A DNA stretch of 64,000 nt from Spirochaetales bacterium. Its GTDB lineage: Bacteria > Spirochaetota > Spirochaetia > UBA9216. The notes under the pieces are model-generated. The model saw only the letters and a list, made by a program, of their open reading frames with translations. It searched no databases and had not been told where the DNA came from. Below, one piece after another: positions 3,182-23,734 of this stretch. The stretch lies in contig JAEKNX010000018.1 of NCBI GenBank assembly GCA_016839055.1, forward strand, positions 1 to 64,000, written 5' to 3'. Made by a program: the position numbers and the translations under genes. The first letter of the stretch is position 1. Each line of letters starts with the position of its first letter.

Positions 3182-3925
3182 TTAGAGGTCAAGAGCAATC
3201 GCCAGACAGTAAATTTCGACTGTTCCGGCCTCCTTCAATACCCCTGCACAGTAATCGAGAGTGGCTCCGGTAGTGAATACATCGTCAAGCAGCAGAGCTT
3301 TCAGCGGCGGCCGTAATTTACTGTTAAAGTGAATTCTGTCATTGAGGTTAAGGAGCCTTTTGTTGTAATTCATTGTCTTTTGGGCAGGGCCATTGTCACG
3401 TCTCAGACAGGGGGATATTTCTACGGTCTTATTTTTTTTTAGTAATGAAGTTATCTCTTCGATATGATCCCAGCCCCTCTTCCTTTTTGAGGCGGGACGG
3501 AACGGAACCGGGATAATAACAGCATCAGAATGGTTGATCTGATGATATCTTAAGATGAGATCCGCGAAATATGAGGCCAGACCTCTTCGGTTCTCAAACT
3601 TGTAGGAACAGATTAAGTCCCTGCCTATTCCATTATATAGAAATAGACTTAACGAAGACTGAAAATTCCAATCTTTGTCTCTGCATGAAAGGCAATCAGA
3701 GTTTTCTGATGTAAGCGGATAACCACAGCTGCGACAGCGGCGAAGACTGCTATAGCTGTTTATATATAGGGCCTCATCGGCGGCAATCCGGCAGGCATTA
3801 CAAAGTGGAACATCCCTGCCTGCTGAGTTTTCAAGGCATAAAGAGGCTCCGCAGAGTGCGCACGAATTCGGCAGAATTAAATCAGCAGCCTTTTCCACGA
3901 AGTCTGTAAAGGAACTCACTTTCAT
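3182..3925 (-). CDS. comF: ComF-family phosphoribosyltransferase-like protein
   Basis: 247 residues from the ATG at 3925; a TTG two codons upstream is possible. The N-terminal part has paired cysteines (SCALCG near 22-26, LCNAC, RRCRSCGYP, DCLSC), the ComF zinc-binding pattern. The C-terminal part is a type I phosphoribosyltransferase fold with the PRPP loop LLLDDVFTTGATL near 208-220. In Bacillus and Haemophilus ComF takes part in DNA uptake, but many bacteria keep it with no known competence system and no substrate is established. It lies 50 bp after mutS on the same strand. Confidence 0.85.
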   Translation of the reverse strand: MKVSSFTDFVEKAADLILPNSCALCGASLCLENSAGRDVPLCNACRIAADEALYINSYSSLRRCRSCGYPLTSENSDCLSCRDKDWNFQSSLSLFLYNGIGRDLICSYKFENRRGLASYFADLILRYHQINHSDAVIIPVPFRPASKRKRGWDHIEEITSLLKKNKTVEISPCLRRDNGPAQKTMNYNKRLLNLNDRIHFNSKLRPPLKALLLDDVFTTGATLDYCAGVLKEAGTVEIYCLAIALDL

Positions 3926-18612: not shown

Positions 18613-19674
18613 TTACCTTATTTGGACCTTCTGCCCGGGCTGAAGAAAACTCTGACCTTCCATTATAAAATCATAATCAGCCATTTTCTCAGGAATAGTA
18701 AAATATTCCGTATTCATGAAGGAGTCTGTAATTTCAATTTTTTCACCAGTTGATGTCGATGAGTTTACATACCAGAGAGAGTTGCCATGCCCTAGTATTT
18801 CCAGAGGAAGATAATAGACGTCTTCCCGCCGGTCAACTTCGAAAATGCAATAGACAAACATTCCCGGCCTGAGACTTGAGATATCCCCGTCTATACGGCA
18901 GCTTATCTCGAAGTTCTTTGATTCGGCATTGATGATGGGTGAAACACTCGAGATATGCGCATCGATGGGCTCACTCTCATAACGCGGACGAATTATTTTC
19001 ACTTTCATTTCCTGTGAGCTTCTGAACAATTCATAATATTTATCGGGTATGTTCAGCTTCACAATCAGATTTGACAGATCACCAATCGTCAGAATCGGTA
19101 TCTCCGGAGCGGCCATGGAGCCCTGATTGGAATGAATAAGTAATACAGTTCCGTCTATGGGCGCGAGGATATTGGTATAGCTGACCTGAAGTTGCGCCAG
19201 TTCATACTGTGATTTATAGGCATCATATTGAGATTTACTCTGTTCGTAATTCTGCCTCGTTGCGGCGTTCGAGTTAAAAAGCTGTTCAAGACGCTCATAG
19301 GCGGATTTTGACCCGAGATATGCCGCCTCAGCTTGTTTGAGCTGCAGATCATAGAACCTTGAATCTATTTTTGCTAAGGGTTGATCTTTTTTTACAGAAT
19401 CGCCCAATTCTACCGTGATCTTCTCGAGGGTTCCCGATACAAAGGGAATAACAGTTATGATGTTATCCGACTGAATATACCCATTCATCCTGAGGGTCTT
19501 TGTCAGGCTTCCTTTTTCGGCATTGATAATTTTCACGGGGGTACTGTGAACCTTCTTATCATCAATTGGAACACTTTTCGAACTCAATGAGCCAAGTAAT
19601 ACAAGGATCAGCGCCACCGCAACTACGCCGAATATGAGTGTCATAATAGTTTTCTTTTTAAAAGGAACGTTCAT
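18613..19674 (-). CDS. RND periplasmic adaptor (membrane fusion protein)
   Basis: 353 residues. A basic N-terminus and one membrane helix (about 10-30) precede the HlyD/AcrA layout: a first lipoyl half-motif (GSLTKTLRMNGYIQ), an alpha-helical hairpin (SRFYDLQLKQAEAAY... to ...YKSQYELAQLQVSY), a second half-motif (ILAPIDGTVLLIHSNQGSMA) and beta-barrel segments. It bridges the RND pump and a TolC channel. The ATG (19672-19674) lies inside the operator-like sequence and about where the mRNA should start, so the message may be leaderless. Confidence 0.92.
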   Translation of the reverse strand: MNVPFKKKTIMTLIFGVVAVALILVLLGSLSSKSVPIDDKKVHSTPVKIINAEKGSLTKTLRMNGYIQSDNIITVIPFVSGTLEKITVELGDSVKKDQPLAKIDSRFYDLQLKQAEAAYLGSKSAYERLEQLFNSNAATRQNYEQSKSQYDAYKSQYELAQLQVSYTNILAPIDGTVLLIHSNQGSMAAPEIPILTIGDLSNLIVKLNIPDKYYELFRSSQEMKVKIIRPRYESEPIDAHISSVSPIINAESKNFEISCRIDGDISSLRPGMFVYCIFEVDRREDVYYLPLEILGHGNSLWYVNSSTSTGEKIEITDSFMNTEYFTIPEKMADYDFIMEGQSFLQPGQKVQIR

Positions 19675-19681
19675 TCTTTAA
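19665..19681 (-). promoter_or_regulatory. TetR-type operator candidate at the adaptor-RND promoter
   Basis: GAACGTTCATTCTTTAA (plus strand) contains the perfect 8-bp palindrome GAACGTTC and near-symmetric AAAGAA/TTC arms. It covers the predicted transcription start and the adaptor start codon. An identical 17-mer lies in the opposite orientation at 20471-20487. Confidence 0.7.
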
Positions 19682-19724
19682 ATATAGTTTTTTTATTGAA
19701 TAATTTCAAGATCTTTGTGATAAT
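19681..19724. promoter_or_regulatory. Overlapping divergent promoters for adaptor-RND and tetR
   Basis: Leftward: TTGAAA (19709-19704), 17 bp, TATATT (19686-19681), with the start expected around the adaptor ATG. Rightward: TTGAAT (19696-19701), 17 bp, GATAAT (19719-19724), with the start expected around 19731, the A of the tetR ATG. The two promoters interlock, so RNA polymerase cannot occupy both at once. Both mRNAs look leaderless, which fits the lack of Shine-Dalgarno sequences. Confidence 0.6.
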
Positions 19725-19730
19725 AATTTT

Positions 19731-20348
19731 ATGGCAAGACAAAGAGACGAACTGAAAAAAGAATTAATCATGTCCTCGGCAACGAAACTCTTTGCTGAAA
19801 AAGGATTTCATGCTACATCCATACAGGACATAGTCAGCGAGTCGGGACTCTCAGTTGGTACTATCTACTTGTATTTCCATAATAAGGAAGAAATCTTTAT
19901 CACCCTCCTCGATAGCGGCGTAGGTGCATTTATTGACGAATTGTTCAACAAGATCACTCCTGGAGTATCAAACGTCGATCTTGCCAGCCAGTTTGGGGAT
20001 ACAATCCTTGAGGCCATTCAGAGTAATCTCAGTGTTGTTACAGTTTTAACGAATGAGCTTAGTTTTCAGGAGCAGCTTCATGGATTCTACTCCATGATAT
20101 CAAAAGCTATTGCCGACAGGTTTATGGGGAATAATGATGAAGAAAGCCTCTATAAGCTTCTAAACATGTCCAAGAAAGAATTTTTCGCACTAGTTACAAT
20201 ATTACTATCCGGTCTGACAAATGCAATAAGGCTAGCAACAGTTCCAAAGCCTATCATTAAGATGAAGGATATTAACTTTGTAATTCAGGAACTTGTTCTA
20301 AAGAGCCTTCTTATGCGAATAGACCTAGAACAATCCATTTCTGATTGA
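19731..20348 (+). CDS. TetR/AcrR-family repressor of the efflux locus
   Basis: 205 residues. The N-terminal helix-turn-helix is typical (ATKLFAEKGFHATSIQDIVS then SGLSVGTIYLYFHNKEEIF); the C-terminal half is a variable ligand-binding domain. It is divergent from the adaptor-RND operon and upstream of the lipoprotein-TolC genes. The shared 17-bp element at both target promoters makes it the obvious regulator. Inference: a substrate of the pump is the inducer. Its own promoter lies beside but not under the operator at 19665-19681, so autoregulation is uncertain. Confidence 0.88.
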   Translation: MARQRDELKKELIMSSATKLFAEKGFHATSIQDIVSESGLSVGTIYLYFHNKEEIFITLLDSGVGAFIDELFNKITPGVSNVDLASQFGDTILEAIQSNLSVVTVLTNELSFQEQLHGFYSMISKAIADRFMGNNDEESLYKLLNMSKKEFFALVTILLSGLTNAIRLATVPKPIIKMKDINFVIQELVLKSLLMRIDLEQSISD

Positions 20349-20354
20349 TATAAC

Positions 20355-20395
20355 TGAGGGAATTTCAAAAATCGGTTATTTTTGAAATTCCCTCA
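20355..20395 (+). terminator. 18-bp perfect hairpin after tetR
   Basis: TGAGGGAATTTCAAAAAT pairs exactly with ATTTTTGAAATTCCCTCA across a 5-nt loop (CGGTT), 6 bp after the tetR stop. No clear U-tract follows on either strand, so it may be a factor-assisted terminator or an mRNA 3'-end stabiliser rather than a classic intrinsic terminator. Confidence 0.55.
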
Positions 20396-20437
20396 ACTTA
20401 CTAAAATAAAAAAATTTAACTATATTTATCTTTTTAC

Positions 20438-20490
20438 TTGAAAATATAGCCGGGATGAAGTAGATTTTAATTAAAGAATGAACGTTCTTT
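20438..20490 (+). promoter_or_regulatory. Promoter and TetR-type operator for lipoprotein-TolC genes
   Basis: TTGAAA (20438-20443), 17 bp, TAGATT (20461-20466). The operator-like sequence TTAAAGAATGAACGTTC (20471-20487) follows and extends to TTCTTT at 20490, giving arms AAAGAA and TTCTTT six bp apart. It covers the predicted start site. The 17-mer is the exact reverse complement of 19665-19681. Confidence 0.65.
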
Positions 20491-20523
20491 TTATTATGAC
20501 TATATGATATTGAAGGGATTTTT

Positions 20524-22302
20524 ATGAAATTATACAGACTTCTGTTAGCTGCTATTATAACGGCAGTTGTTTTATCCGGATGCTCGGTGGTTTTTACATC
20601 TTCGATAACCGGATCAATTGTTGATGAAGAACAATATGACAACGGGACAACCGGCAGCGGAATAGCCGATGCCGAGGTTTACCTTTATACCGAAACGGCA
20701 ATGTGCAGCGCCGATCTCACGGCCTGGACGGCAGACAACTCCGTACTGCCTGATGAGCCTGCGGCCGGAGAGCCGACCTACTTCCTTAAGACCATCACTG
20801 ATGAACAGGGCGCGTACACCTTCAACGGTCTAATCTGGAATGAACTCTTCCCTGAATACGGAAAATCAGGAGACCGTAAAGAGGTTTTCATGCTCTTTCA
20901 TCATGAACGCTATGGCCTTCAAGAAGCTCCCTACCCTGTATATGTTGTATCGGATGTGACTAACAGAATTCCACTGTTCAAGCTCCCGAGAATTCTAAAC
21001 ACCGCGAGGATAGCGGGAACCGTTAGAGACGGCAAGACTGATCAGGTTCTGCCTAATGCCAATGTTCTGATCTGGGTGCCAAAATCATGGGAATACACCG
21101 CAGTCGGCAATATAGATACAAGTGAATCAAAGTTTACCTGGGAGACTGACCCCTCCTATACGGCGCTCTCTGATGTCAACGGCGAATGGGAACAGGAGAT
21201 TTCTTATAAAATGCTGCCGTCGAGCACCGATAACAACGAGACAACTATCATCCGGCTAACCTATCTCGCCAACGGTTATATTGCCGAAAATGCAACAGAT
21301 TCGAAGATTATCGACGGCGGCTGGGACCGTGACGGAAACGGAAGCATTGATCCTGATGAGGACGACGGCTACTATCAGTCCGGGGAAATAACCGATGACA
21401 CCTATGCCGATCTTGGAGAAATAGCCCTTGCCGATGAATATAATGCGGCAACTCTTACCGGGACGGTGCTTAATTCAAGCAGCAGTACAGGTGAACAGAA
21501 CGTAAGGGTCGATATCTATGTAGCCGAAGACTGGAGCTATAACAGCTCCGATCCGGATGATATCCAGGCCGCAACAGCCGTTGACTGGCCCGAGAATCCG
21601 TCTTATTCGACCACGACCGATGCAGATGGTGAATACACACAGACAATAAGGTTCGAACGAAAACCTTCCCAGAATGACAATAGGGGGACAACCAGAGTAA
21701 GAGTTGTCTTTACCAAGGATACTTTTAAAATTGATAGTACTACTGATGTCAAATTAACCGACGGCGGCTGGGATCGTGACGAAAACGGAACGATTGACGT
21801 CGATGAGGATGACGCTTTCTATGACCCCTCATCTGTTATAACAAAAGACCGCACGAATGACCTGGGCAGTATCAAAATAAAGCAGACTAAGTTTAATGAA
21901 ACGCTGTCGGGTGAAGTCGTGAATGTCGGCGGCACGGGAATAGACGGTGTAGTGGTTTGGCTCTTTTTTACACCGGATCATGATGGCAATCCTGCTACAC
22001 CGCATCAGGATACGCTAATACCGGTTGTCGGAACGACTATACCGACGAAGAAAACCAGTACACAACTTCAGATAATTACTCAGGATCAGGTAAAACTCGG
22101 TCGGTTCAACTTTCCTGGTCTTGAATGGGAAGATACTACCTATACCAGTGATCAGAGTGATATAGGTTATTATATATATCTCCCGGATGATGATGAAATT
22201 GTAGCCGGTGTTTATAGTGGAACTGGAACGCCTCTTCATGCCAACCTGAAAATGAAGCAATTAATCGCCGGTTCAAATAACTTCATTAGTATTACAAAGT
22301 AG
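20524..22302 (+). CDS. Modular lipoprotein linked to the efflux locus
   Basis: 592 residues with a lipoprotein signal (MKLYRLLLAAIITAVVLSGC, lipobox Cys at 20). The mature part begins with a carboxypeptidase-regulatory or Ig-like segment (TGSIVDEEQ...DEQGAYTFNGL). Two tandem modules about 149 residues apart follow. Each has a DADGEY-type turn and ends in an acidic loop, DRDGNGSIDPDED (near 270) and DRDENGTIDVDED (near 420), which matches a calcium-binding EF-hand/dockerin loop pattern. A further degenerate module closes the protein. The gene has a TGAAGGG ribosome site and lies 4 bp before the TolC-like gene under an operator shared with the pump. The function is not known; a surface or periplasmic accessory of the pump is my inference. 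Confidence 0.8.
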   Translation: MKLYRLLLAAIITAVVLSGCSVVFTSSITGSIVDEEQYDNGTTGSGIADAEVYLYTETAMCSADLTAWTADNSVLPDEPAAGEPTYFLKTITDEQGAYTFNGLIWNELFPEYGKSGDRKEVFMLFHHERYGLQEAPYPVYVVSDVTNRIPLFKLPRILNTARIAGTVRDGKTDQVLPNANVLIWVPKSWEYTAVGNIDTSESKFTWETDPSYTALSDVNGEWEQEISYKMLPSSTDNNETTIIRLTYLANGYIAENATDSKIIDGGWDRDGNGSIDPDEDDGYYQSGEITDDTYADLGEIALADEYNAATLTGTVLNSSSSTGEQNVRVDIYVAEDWSYNSSDPDDIQAATAVDWPENPSYSTTTDADGEYTQTIRFERKPSQNDNRGTTRVRVVFTKDTFKIDSTTDVKLTDGGWDRDENGTIDVDEDDAFYDPSSVITKDRTNDLGSIKIKQTKFNETLSGEVVNVGGTGIDGVVVWLFFTPDHDGNPATPHQDTLIPVVGTTIPTKKTSTQLQIITQDQVKLGRFNFPGLEWEDTTYTSDQSDIGYYIYLPDDDEIVAGVYSGTGTPLHANLKMKQLIAGSNNFISITK

Positions 22303-22306
22303 CAGG

Positions 22307-23734
22307 ATGAGCATGAAGAAAATATTATTAATTTCAATACTGCTTACAGCAGTTTCCATTTTTTCAATATTCTCAGTAGATATTCCTTCGGTTTTTACCG
22401 GAACCGAGATTACGCCGGATATGCTATATAGAAGCGCGCTTGATAAGAACATTGATCTGCAGAAACTCGACATCGAGAGGAAACAGGCTGATATAGACAG
22501 GAAGAATGCCGAAGCTTCGGCATTTCCTACCGTTGAATTTCAGACTAGTCTGACTTATCAGACAACACCCATGATAGAGCCAATAAAGCTTACTGCGGGT
22601 CAGCTCGGCGCTTACGACATAGGCGGAAGCAGTATTCTCCTTCCATCCGAAGACATGACAATTTATGAGGGGATGGAAAATACCCATTATGAGTTCAAGC
22701 TGATAGTCGATCAGCCGGTCTTCACCTGGGGCAAGATAACTAATTCAGTTCTTTTGTATCAGGATATTGCGCAGATATCAGGACTGAAAACCGAGAGCAG
22801 CCGCAACGGAATTCGGACAAGAATATATATTTACGCCTACACTCTCAATTTCATTGAAAAGATAGAGGAACGTCTGGCCAATCAGGCTAAAGACGCAGAA
22901 CGATTTATTTCAATAGCTGATGAATCTTACCAAAACGGCTTCATTCTTTATACCGATCTGCTCAAGGCCAGGATTCAGGCAAAAGAACTTCAGATTGCCC
23001 AGGCTGAGATTACCAAACAGAAAGAAGCAGCTATTCTTTCGCTGTCACAGCTCTCAGGTATCCGGAATATTGACATCGATAATCTGGATTTCAGTTTTAT
23101 CCGAAAAATTGAGGATATCAGTCTTCAGACTGCCGGGTGGTATCTCGACAGCGCCCTGAAAAACAGTCCGGAAATTCAGATGCTGAATATTATAAGAAAT
23201 ATAAATGAGCTTAAGGTGAAGATTAGCGAAGGCGCCGGCTATTTCAAGCCTGACATAGGTCTTCATTTTGAATTAGGATATACAGGGCCAAGGTTTCCCT
23301 TCATCGAAGCCGACTGGTTTGGAAAGGATAGCCTGGGGCTTAATTCAACTATCGCGCTTCAGACAATTCTCTATGACGGCGGCAAGATAGCTTATCAGAT
23401 AGAACGGGATACACAGGAGCTGAACAAGGCCTTTCATGAATATGAGCTCGGAGTGGATCAGATCTACTATTTTATAAATGAAACTCTTCTGACACTGGAG
23501 CTGAACCGTCAGAATATCGAGTATTACCGGCTTCTACAGGAGAATGATCAGCAGCAGATTGAGCTGAGACGCACCCAATTTGAAGCGGGTTCAGGAGATG
23601 AAACTGCGATGCTTGCAGAACAGATTCAACTTAATACTAATATGATAAAAGAGCATAGGGAAATGATAGATTTCTATAAAAACTACTTCGCGCTTATAGG
23701 GGCAGCTTCCGCATTTGATGATTCGCTTAAATAA
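22307..23734 (+). CDS. TolC-like outer membrane efflux protein
   Basis: 475 residues. A signal peptide (KKILLISILLTAVSIFSIFS) precedes two repeated halves of long amphipathic helices with short strand segments, the TolC layout (MLYRSALDKNIDLQKLDIERKQADID; LRRTQFEAGSGDETAMLAEQIQL near the end). It forms the outer-membrane channel of the RND system. ATG 22307 and ATG 22313 are both possible; an AGGA sequence fits the second better. It is 4 bp after the lipoprotein gene and so probably cotranscribed. The pump and the channel are in separate, co-controlled transcripts. Confidence 0.88.
   Translation: MSMKKILLISILLTAVSIFSIFSVDIPSVFTGTEITPDMLYRSALDKNIDLQKLDIERKQADIDRKNAEASAFPTVEFQTSLTYQTTPMIEPIKLTAGQLGAYDIGGSSILLPSEDMTIYEGMENTHYEFKLIVDQPVFTWGKITNSVLLYQDIAQISGLKTESSRNGIRTRIYIYAYTLNFIEKIEERLANQAKDAERFISIADESYQNGFILYTDLLKARIQAKELQIAQAEITKQKEAAILSLSQLSGIRNIDIDNLDFSFIRKIEDISLQTAGWYLDSALKNSPEIQMLNIIRNINELKVKISEGAGYFKPDIGLHFELGYTGPRFPFIEADWFGKDSLGLNSTIALQTILYDGGKIAYQIERDTQELNKAFHEYELGVDQIYYFINETLLTLELNRQNIEYYRLLQENDQQQIELRRTQFEAGSGDETAMLAEQIQLNTNMIKEHREMIDFYKNYFALIGAASAFDDSLK

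Follow-up and report, generated by a model that had tools for sequence, protein, structure and literature searches.

RND pumps are described as three-part machines. The HAE/RND systems AcrAB-TolC and MexAB-OprM, each with a local TetR, resemble the locus studied here in combining a pump, a hairpin adaptor, a TolC-type channel, an adjacent tetR gene, and palindromic operators. A further likeness is BesABC of Borrelia burgdorferi, a spirochaete RND-TolC system with the operon order besCAB, whose adaptor BesA lacks an alpha-hairpin and has a lipidation site of its own at Cys26 (PMC3807786). In the YbjP-TolC-AcrABZ / MacAB systems of E. coli (eLife 2026), the DUF3828 lipoprotein YbjP binds TolC 3:3 at the equatorial domain while anchored by its lipid in the outer membrane (PMC13082787, PMC13095208).

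The window analyzed here, a stretch of 64,000 nucleotides from a Spirochaetales contig, encodes a pump, a periplasmic adaptor, and a TolC-type channel together, and so qualifies as a tripartite RND system (ACR_tran, RND_mfp above cut-off, OEP; Table 1). Loci of this kind differ from AcrAB-TolC and MexAB-OprM in that an extra conserved lipoprotein gene (hereafter LIP) lies between pump and channel, and in that neither adaptor nor channel is lipidated. The open reading frames agree with the layout given in the initial annotation, with RND and adaptor on one side, tetR in the middle, and lipoprotein and TolC on the other; the RND gene itself falls outside the interval covered at that time (18613-23734). 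By our hairpin check, the window adaptor has an alpha-hairpin, with 67 residues between the lipoyl halves and a hairpin-tip-like RLEQL...R motif. The window opens (positions 1-387 and 429-499) with tandemly repeated units of 63/108/171 bp and 15 bp, probably a repetitive coding region. A link of the locus to defence systems was also considered, and PADLOC gave no match.

Table 1. Features of the lipoprotein-RND locus, in positions of the window.
Feature	Position	Strand	Evidence or remark
RND pump (ACR_tran), 1035 aa	15495..18602	-	Pfam PF00873 E 4e-213
Periplasmic adaptor (MFP), 353 aa	18613..19674	-	TIGR01730 above cut-off; alpha-hairpin; no lipobox
TetR operator copy 1 (putative), GAACGTTCATTCTTTAA	19665..19681	+	5 nt downstream of adaptor-RND -10
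Adaptor-RND promoter, TTGAAA-17-TATATT	19681..19709	-	predicted; followed by operator copy 1
TetR-family repressor, 205 aa	19731..20348	+	PF00440 E 6e-17
Hairpin with 18-bp stem, gap between tetR and lipoprotein gene	20355..20395	+	RNA fold -23.4 kcal/mol, z -8.3
Lipoprotein-TolC promoter, TTGAAA-17-TAGATT	20438..20466	+	predicted; followed by operator copy 2
TetR operator copy 2 (putative), same 17-mer inverted	20471..20487	-	10 nt after lipoprotein -10
Lipoprotein (LIP), 592 aa, lipobox LSGC, Cys20	20524..22302	+	signal peptide, N-terminal domain ~residues 20-160, further transthyretin-like modules
First calcium-loop-like stretch in LIP, around GGWDRDGNGSIDP	21316..21360 (approximate)	+	sequence, family survey
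Second calcium-loop-like stretch in LIP, around GGWDRDENGTIDV	21763..21807 (approximate)	+	149 residues after first
TolC-like outer-membrane channel (OEP), 475 aa, not lipidated	22307..23734	+	PF02321 E 1e-30; no lipobox

The identical inverted 17-mer that the initial annotation had noticed at the two promoters is present as described, as GAACGTTCATTCTTTAA at one and as its reverse complement at the other. Both copies sit 5-10 nt past the -10 box of a good promoter, and copy 1 also overlaps the beginning of the adaptor frame when that frame is called from its first ATG. The bare 8-mer core is unremarkable (2 found vs. 0.78 expected). The full 17-mer, in contrast, occurs exactly twice in the 5.0-Mb genome, where ~0.0006 copies of a given 17-mer are expected. 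Two sites in the genome match with one mismatch, both inside unrelated coding frames. A wider TetR regulon found no support in this genome, with no further exact 17-mers and the one-mismatch sites sitting in genes, and a loose search for TGAATGA-N4-TCATTCA was so permissive that it contributed no targets. In the gap between tetR and the lipoprotein gene, scanning for terminators gave none with a T run; the hairpin there, itself without a T run, is a putative end of the tetR transcript.

The operator recurs with related regulators. A genus-mate of the window (L028) has the same divergent layout and retains both sites, one with a single base change. Perfect TGAATGAACGTTCATTCA precedes the tetR-adaptor-RND-LIP-TolC operons of L040, where it lies within a 28-bp perfect palindrome, L041, and L113, and sites matching it at 15-17/18 positions stand at the start of the tetR or adaptor gene in L042, L105, L114, L138, and L140; the best palindrome match at the remaining loci is 10-14/18. 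The palindrome is thereby found before related tetR-pump operons of distant families. Outside the genus, the nearest kin of the window TetR are the TetRs of other lipoprotein-RND operons, most with the same operator, and the TetRs adjacent to the operators just listed (where present) are among them. Because the same palindrome stands at the right place in distant relatives, next to TetRs that are kin of this one, regulator and operator are conserved together, as for a local repressor whose binding is predicted. The window layout is best read as an operon split in two, with each half retaining one operator copy. At L041, a 46-bp perfect palindrome (3445-3490), unusually long for a TetR site, is centered on the operator ~49 bp before tetR.

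The best NCBIfam match of the window TetR is the Bacillus FadR-type model (E 1.7e-16), at 60.6 bits vs. a cut-off of 200, and the half-site TGAATGA with its 4-nt spacing resembles the FadR operator. Acyl-CoA sensing, suggested by this resemblance, is an unproven lead; the match covers mostly the DNA-binding end, and nothing found points to an acyl-CoA ligand.

On the window lipoprotein, every Pfam and NCBIfam model stays below its cut-off, with CarboxypepD_reg at 24.0 bits vs. 32.3. An alignment of 16 members shows invariant Cys20, Gly30, Tyr55, Trp105, and Gly113, and a near-invariant Asp117. A strict lipobox, the mark of a bacterial lipoprotein, is present in 76 of the 89 homologues, and in most of the listed exceptions a Cys follows a hydrophobic stretch or the lipoprotein is joined to RND. 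The AlphaFold2 model consists of tandem transthyretin-like beta-sandwiches (mean pLDDT 81.7 for the full length, 85.2 for the N-terminal domain). Foldseek pointed to transthyretin-like/CnaB-type folds, with matches to CPD, dioxygenase, DUF3823, and pilin domains at modest TM-scores. The model thus suggests a transthyretin-like or carboxypeptidase-regulatory-like beta-sandwich, in a sequence that stays below the Pfam cut-off. A beta-sandwich resembling that of LIP is found in carboxypeptidase D, DUF3823, and TssJ/Lip (4a1r); TssJ-type proteins are outer-membrane lipoproteins of the envelope-spanning type VI secretion machine, and the 4a1r match is weak (E 0.014, TM about 0.3), with no sequence relation found. 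Homologues range from 143 to 1017 aa, and the shortest are little more than the N-terminal domain, which is the sole universal part; the repeated modules seen in the window protein form an optional extension. A literature search, mostly of sources outside subscription journals, found no published description of this lipoprotein. With LIP, a protein family that current libraries miss gains a nameable domain.

To follow the family beyond the window, a profile (A1) built solely from the N-terminal domain was run over genomes blind to gene context. At E<=0.001 it matched 86 of the 395 class genomes, reaching 45 of 133 genera, and 84 of the 86 matched at E ~1e-6 or better; three genomes from other classes of the phylum were matched as well. 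The named relatives are all Spirochaetes MAGs, and one restrictive peptide pattern used to look for LIP outside the phylum matched Spirochaetes alone. Three weak candidates (L153, L154, and L172; E>1e-4), matched mainly in the signal/lipobox region and with no RND nearby, were rejected and are not counted.

We read the neighborhoods of 89 LIP loci, which is the comparison with other spirochaetes that the initial annotation had called for, and its expectation was borne out by an RND pump in all 89. The pump gene lies immediately upstream in the same orientation in 84, is in frame with LIP in two (L115 and L123), is divergent in two (the window genus), and in one (L140) the order is RND-MFP-LIP-OEP. 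TolC is directly downstream of LIP in 84/84 loci whose contig extends that far, and LIP adjoins TolC in both rearranged layouts (the window genus, including L028, and L140). The commonest order is adaptor-RND-lipoprotein-TolC on one strand. RND and LIP share an ATGA overlap in 43/85 loci, adaptor and RND in 44/75, and LIP and TolC in 20/83; such an overlap is the usual sign of translational coupling, here of LIP with the pump. Gene neighborhood ties LIP to RND-TolC genes across the whole class and, within the phylum, beyond it.

In L115 (3762-7970) and L123 (3564-7664), RND and LIP form one uninterrupted frame with no stop. Two proteins may still arise, because a Shine-Dalgarno-like GGGGAT and an ATG are kept before the LIP part, along with the lipobox. 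At L086 (4758-8948), adaptor and RND are one frame of 1396 residues, a possible natural adaptor-pump fusion. At L129 (4828-11511), the adaptor is spread over three frames and TolC over two, with RND and LIP intact, which may reflect a decaying operon or assembly errors.

RND systems of the same clade without LIP also exist (L203-L209), so LIP is not always needed, and some of these sister systems have the same TolC type (L204-L207 and L209). Two of them, L206 and L209, belong to the same family as the window and have RND-adaptor and TolC arranged divergently, with no lipoprotein gene. On a tree of 62 pumps, LIP-bearing RNDs fall mainly in two clades, and the distribution of LIP needs five or six gains or losses, vs. 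~16 with shuffled labels; so few changes mark LIP as an old component that is sometimes lost.

Lipidation and the adaptor hairpin were compared across loci. A lipobox was found on TolC in 0/84 LIP loci and on the adaptor in 0/76, vs. 7/19 adaptors in the other spirochaete RND loci examined. The idea that LIP accompanies an unlipidated TolC and is missing where TolC is lipidated was not supported, as TolC is also unlipidated in 15/16 of the LIP-less operons examined. Unlike BesA, LIP-associated adaptors have the alpha-hairpin in 74 of 76 measurable loci; only the adaptors of L115 and L123 are hairpin-less as BesA is. The notion, taken from BesA, that LIP stands in for a missing hairpin (PMC3807786) is therefore rejected as a general role. 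A mirror-tree analysis of the possible partners of LIP gave partial correlations near zero and singled out none.

The LIP gene lies beside pump and channel in 89/89 cases, which makes a dedicated fourth part probable for this pump type. The co-regulated fourth component proposed in the initial annotation is strongly supported by this association, together with the operator conserved in distant tetR-pump operons. We consider it probable, on these genomic grounds, that LIP is a dedicated, co-regulated fourth RND subunit, most likely the lipid-anchored partner of the non-lipidated TolC-like channel. TetR would bind both operator copies until an inducer releases it, so that all four parts would be made together. 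Through its N-terminal lipid, LIP would be anchored in the periplasm, with the outer membrane as the most likely site; its conserved N-terminal beta-sandwich may bind the TolC-like channel and hold, orient, or help assemble it for the adaptor and pump. The C-terminal modules, some with calcium-like loops, could serve as variable spacers or stabilizers.

We infer a channel partner because LIP stays by TolC when the operon is rearranged, because YbjP provides a precedent, and because the fold resembles TssJ/Lip, if weakly. Like LIP, YbjP is a separate lipoprotein alongside a TolC channel without a lipid of its own. Unlike YbjP, LIP is encoded inside the pump operon; Pfam scans found no DUF3828 (PF12883) match in it, and the YbjP globular domain is described with four consecutive alpha-helices, whereas LIP is a beta-sandwich. 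LIP thus lies outside the YbjP family and may nevertheless work like YbjP, whose binding to TolC has been shown, while that of LIP is suggested by functional analogy. Some points count against this main reading, namely the LIP-less sister systems, the mirror-tree analysis that singled out no partner, the in-frame RND-LIP of L115 and L123, which could indicate a place near the pump, and the dispensability of E. coli YbjP for efflux under laboratory conditions (PMC13082787, PMC13095208).

A placement near the pump, in which LIP is a dedicated part that stays at the inner membrane next to the RND protein and the adaptor, perhaps as a scaffold or substrate-collecting subunit, seems unlikely to us. 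It is favored by the coincidence of the joined RND-LIP frames with the only hairpin-less adaptors among the 76, by an ATGA overlap that is commoner for RND/LIP than for LIP/TolC, and by the fact that elsewhere among spirochaete RND systems the lipoprotein is sometimes the adaptor itself, which is never so here. However, the rearranged orders of the window, L028, and L140 keep LIP with TolC, and the signals retained in the joined frame mean that a separate protein may still form there. Spirochaetes have many surface lipoproteins, and the length spread of LIP and its tandem beta-sandwiches, which resemble Gram-positive pilins in the fold search, would also suit a surface or periplasmic ligand-binding protein that is only co-regulated with the pump and makes no contact with it. 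Such a role is improbable for a family whose universal part is a short N-terminal domain, barely exceeded by the smallest members and, in 89 loci, confined to RND operons.

The initial annotation had also raised calcium sensing. The window lipoprotein does contain the two modules of ~149 residues, with loops DRDGNGSIDPDE and DRDENGTIDVDE, on which it drew, and the loops are near-perfect 12-residue EF-like sequences. Across the family, DxDxDG loops exceed chance (44 seen vs. 15.8 expected) and are common in members >430 aa (16/20), but they occur in 33/89 members overall and 1/15 of those <220 aa. EF-like 12-mers are found in 7/89 and are near-absent in the shortest members (143-190 aa), so that a calcium loop is not conserved in the family. 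The Pfam EF-hand model scores the window protein below cut-off (E 0.07), and the structural model has no helix-loop-helix, only a loop with a 3-residue turn inside a beta-sandwich. With loops in a minority of members and a model without EF-hand helices, calcium is not the core function of LIP. Loops of the DxDxDG type often serve only fold stability, and we regard it as very improbable that LIP uses its EF-hand-like loops to sense calcium and so gate efflux.

Returning to LIP as a fourth subunit that partners the channel, a broader proposal is possible, which we offer tentatively and with some doubt. The phylum-wide lipoprotein family could supply a spirochaete RND class with an integral fourth subunit and be a convergent, operon-encoded counterpart of YbjP. 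It would anchor the channel or set how far the pump spans the spirochaete periplasm, with the number of modules tuning its length.

The report of a lipoprotein that partners E. coli TolC dates only from 2026, and the purpose of this partner is debated (PMC13082787, PMC13095208). What is new here is probably a tripartite RND pump with a dedicated lipoprotein encoded in its operon. With an unrelated lipoprotein inside a pump operon of a separate lineage, the question of why channels want a lipid-anchored partner becomes testable by comparison and by single-gene deletion.
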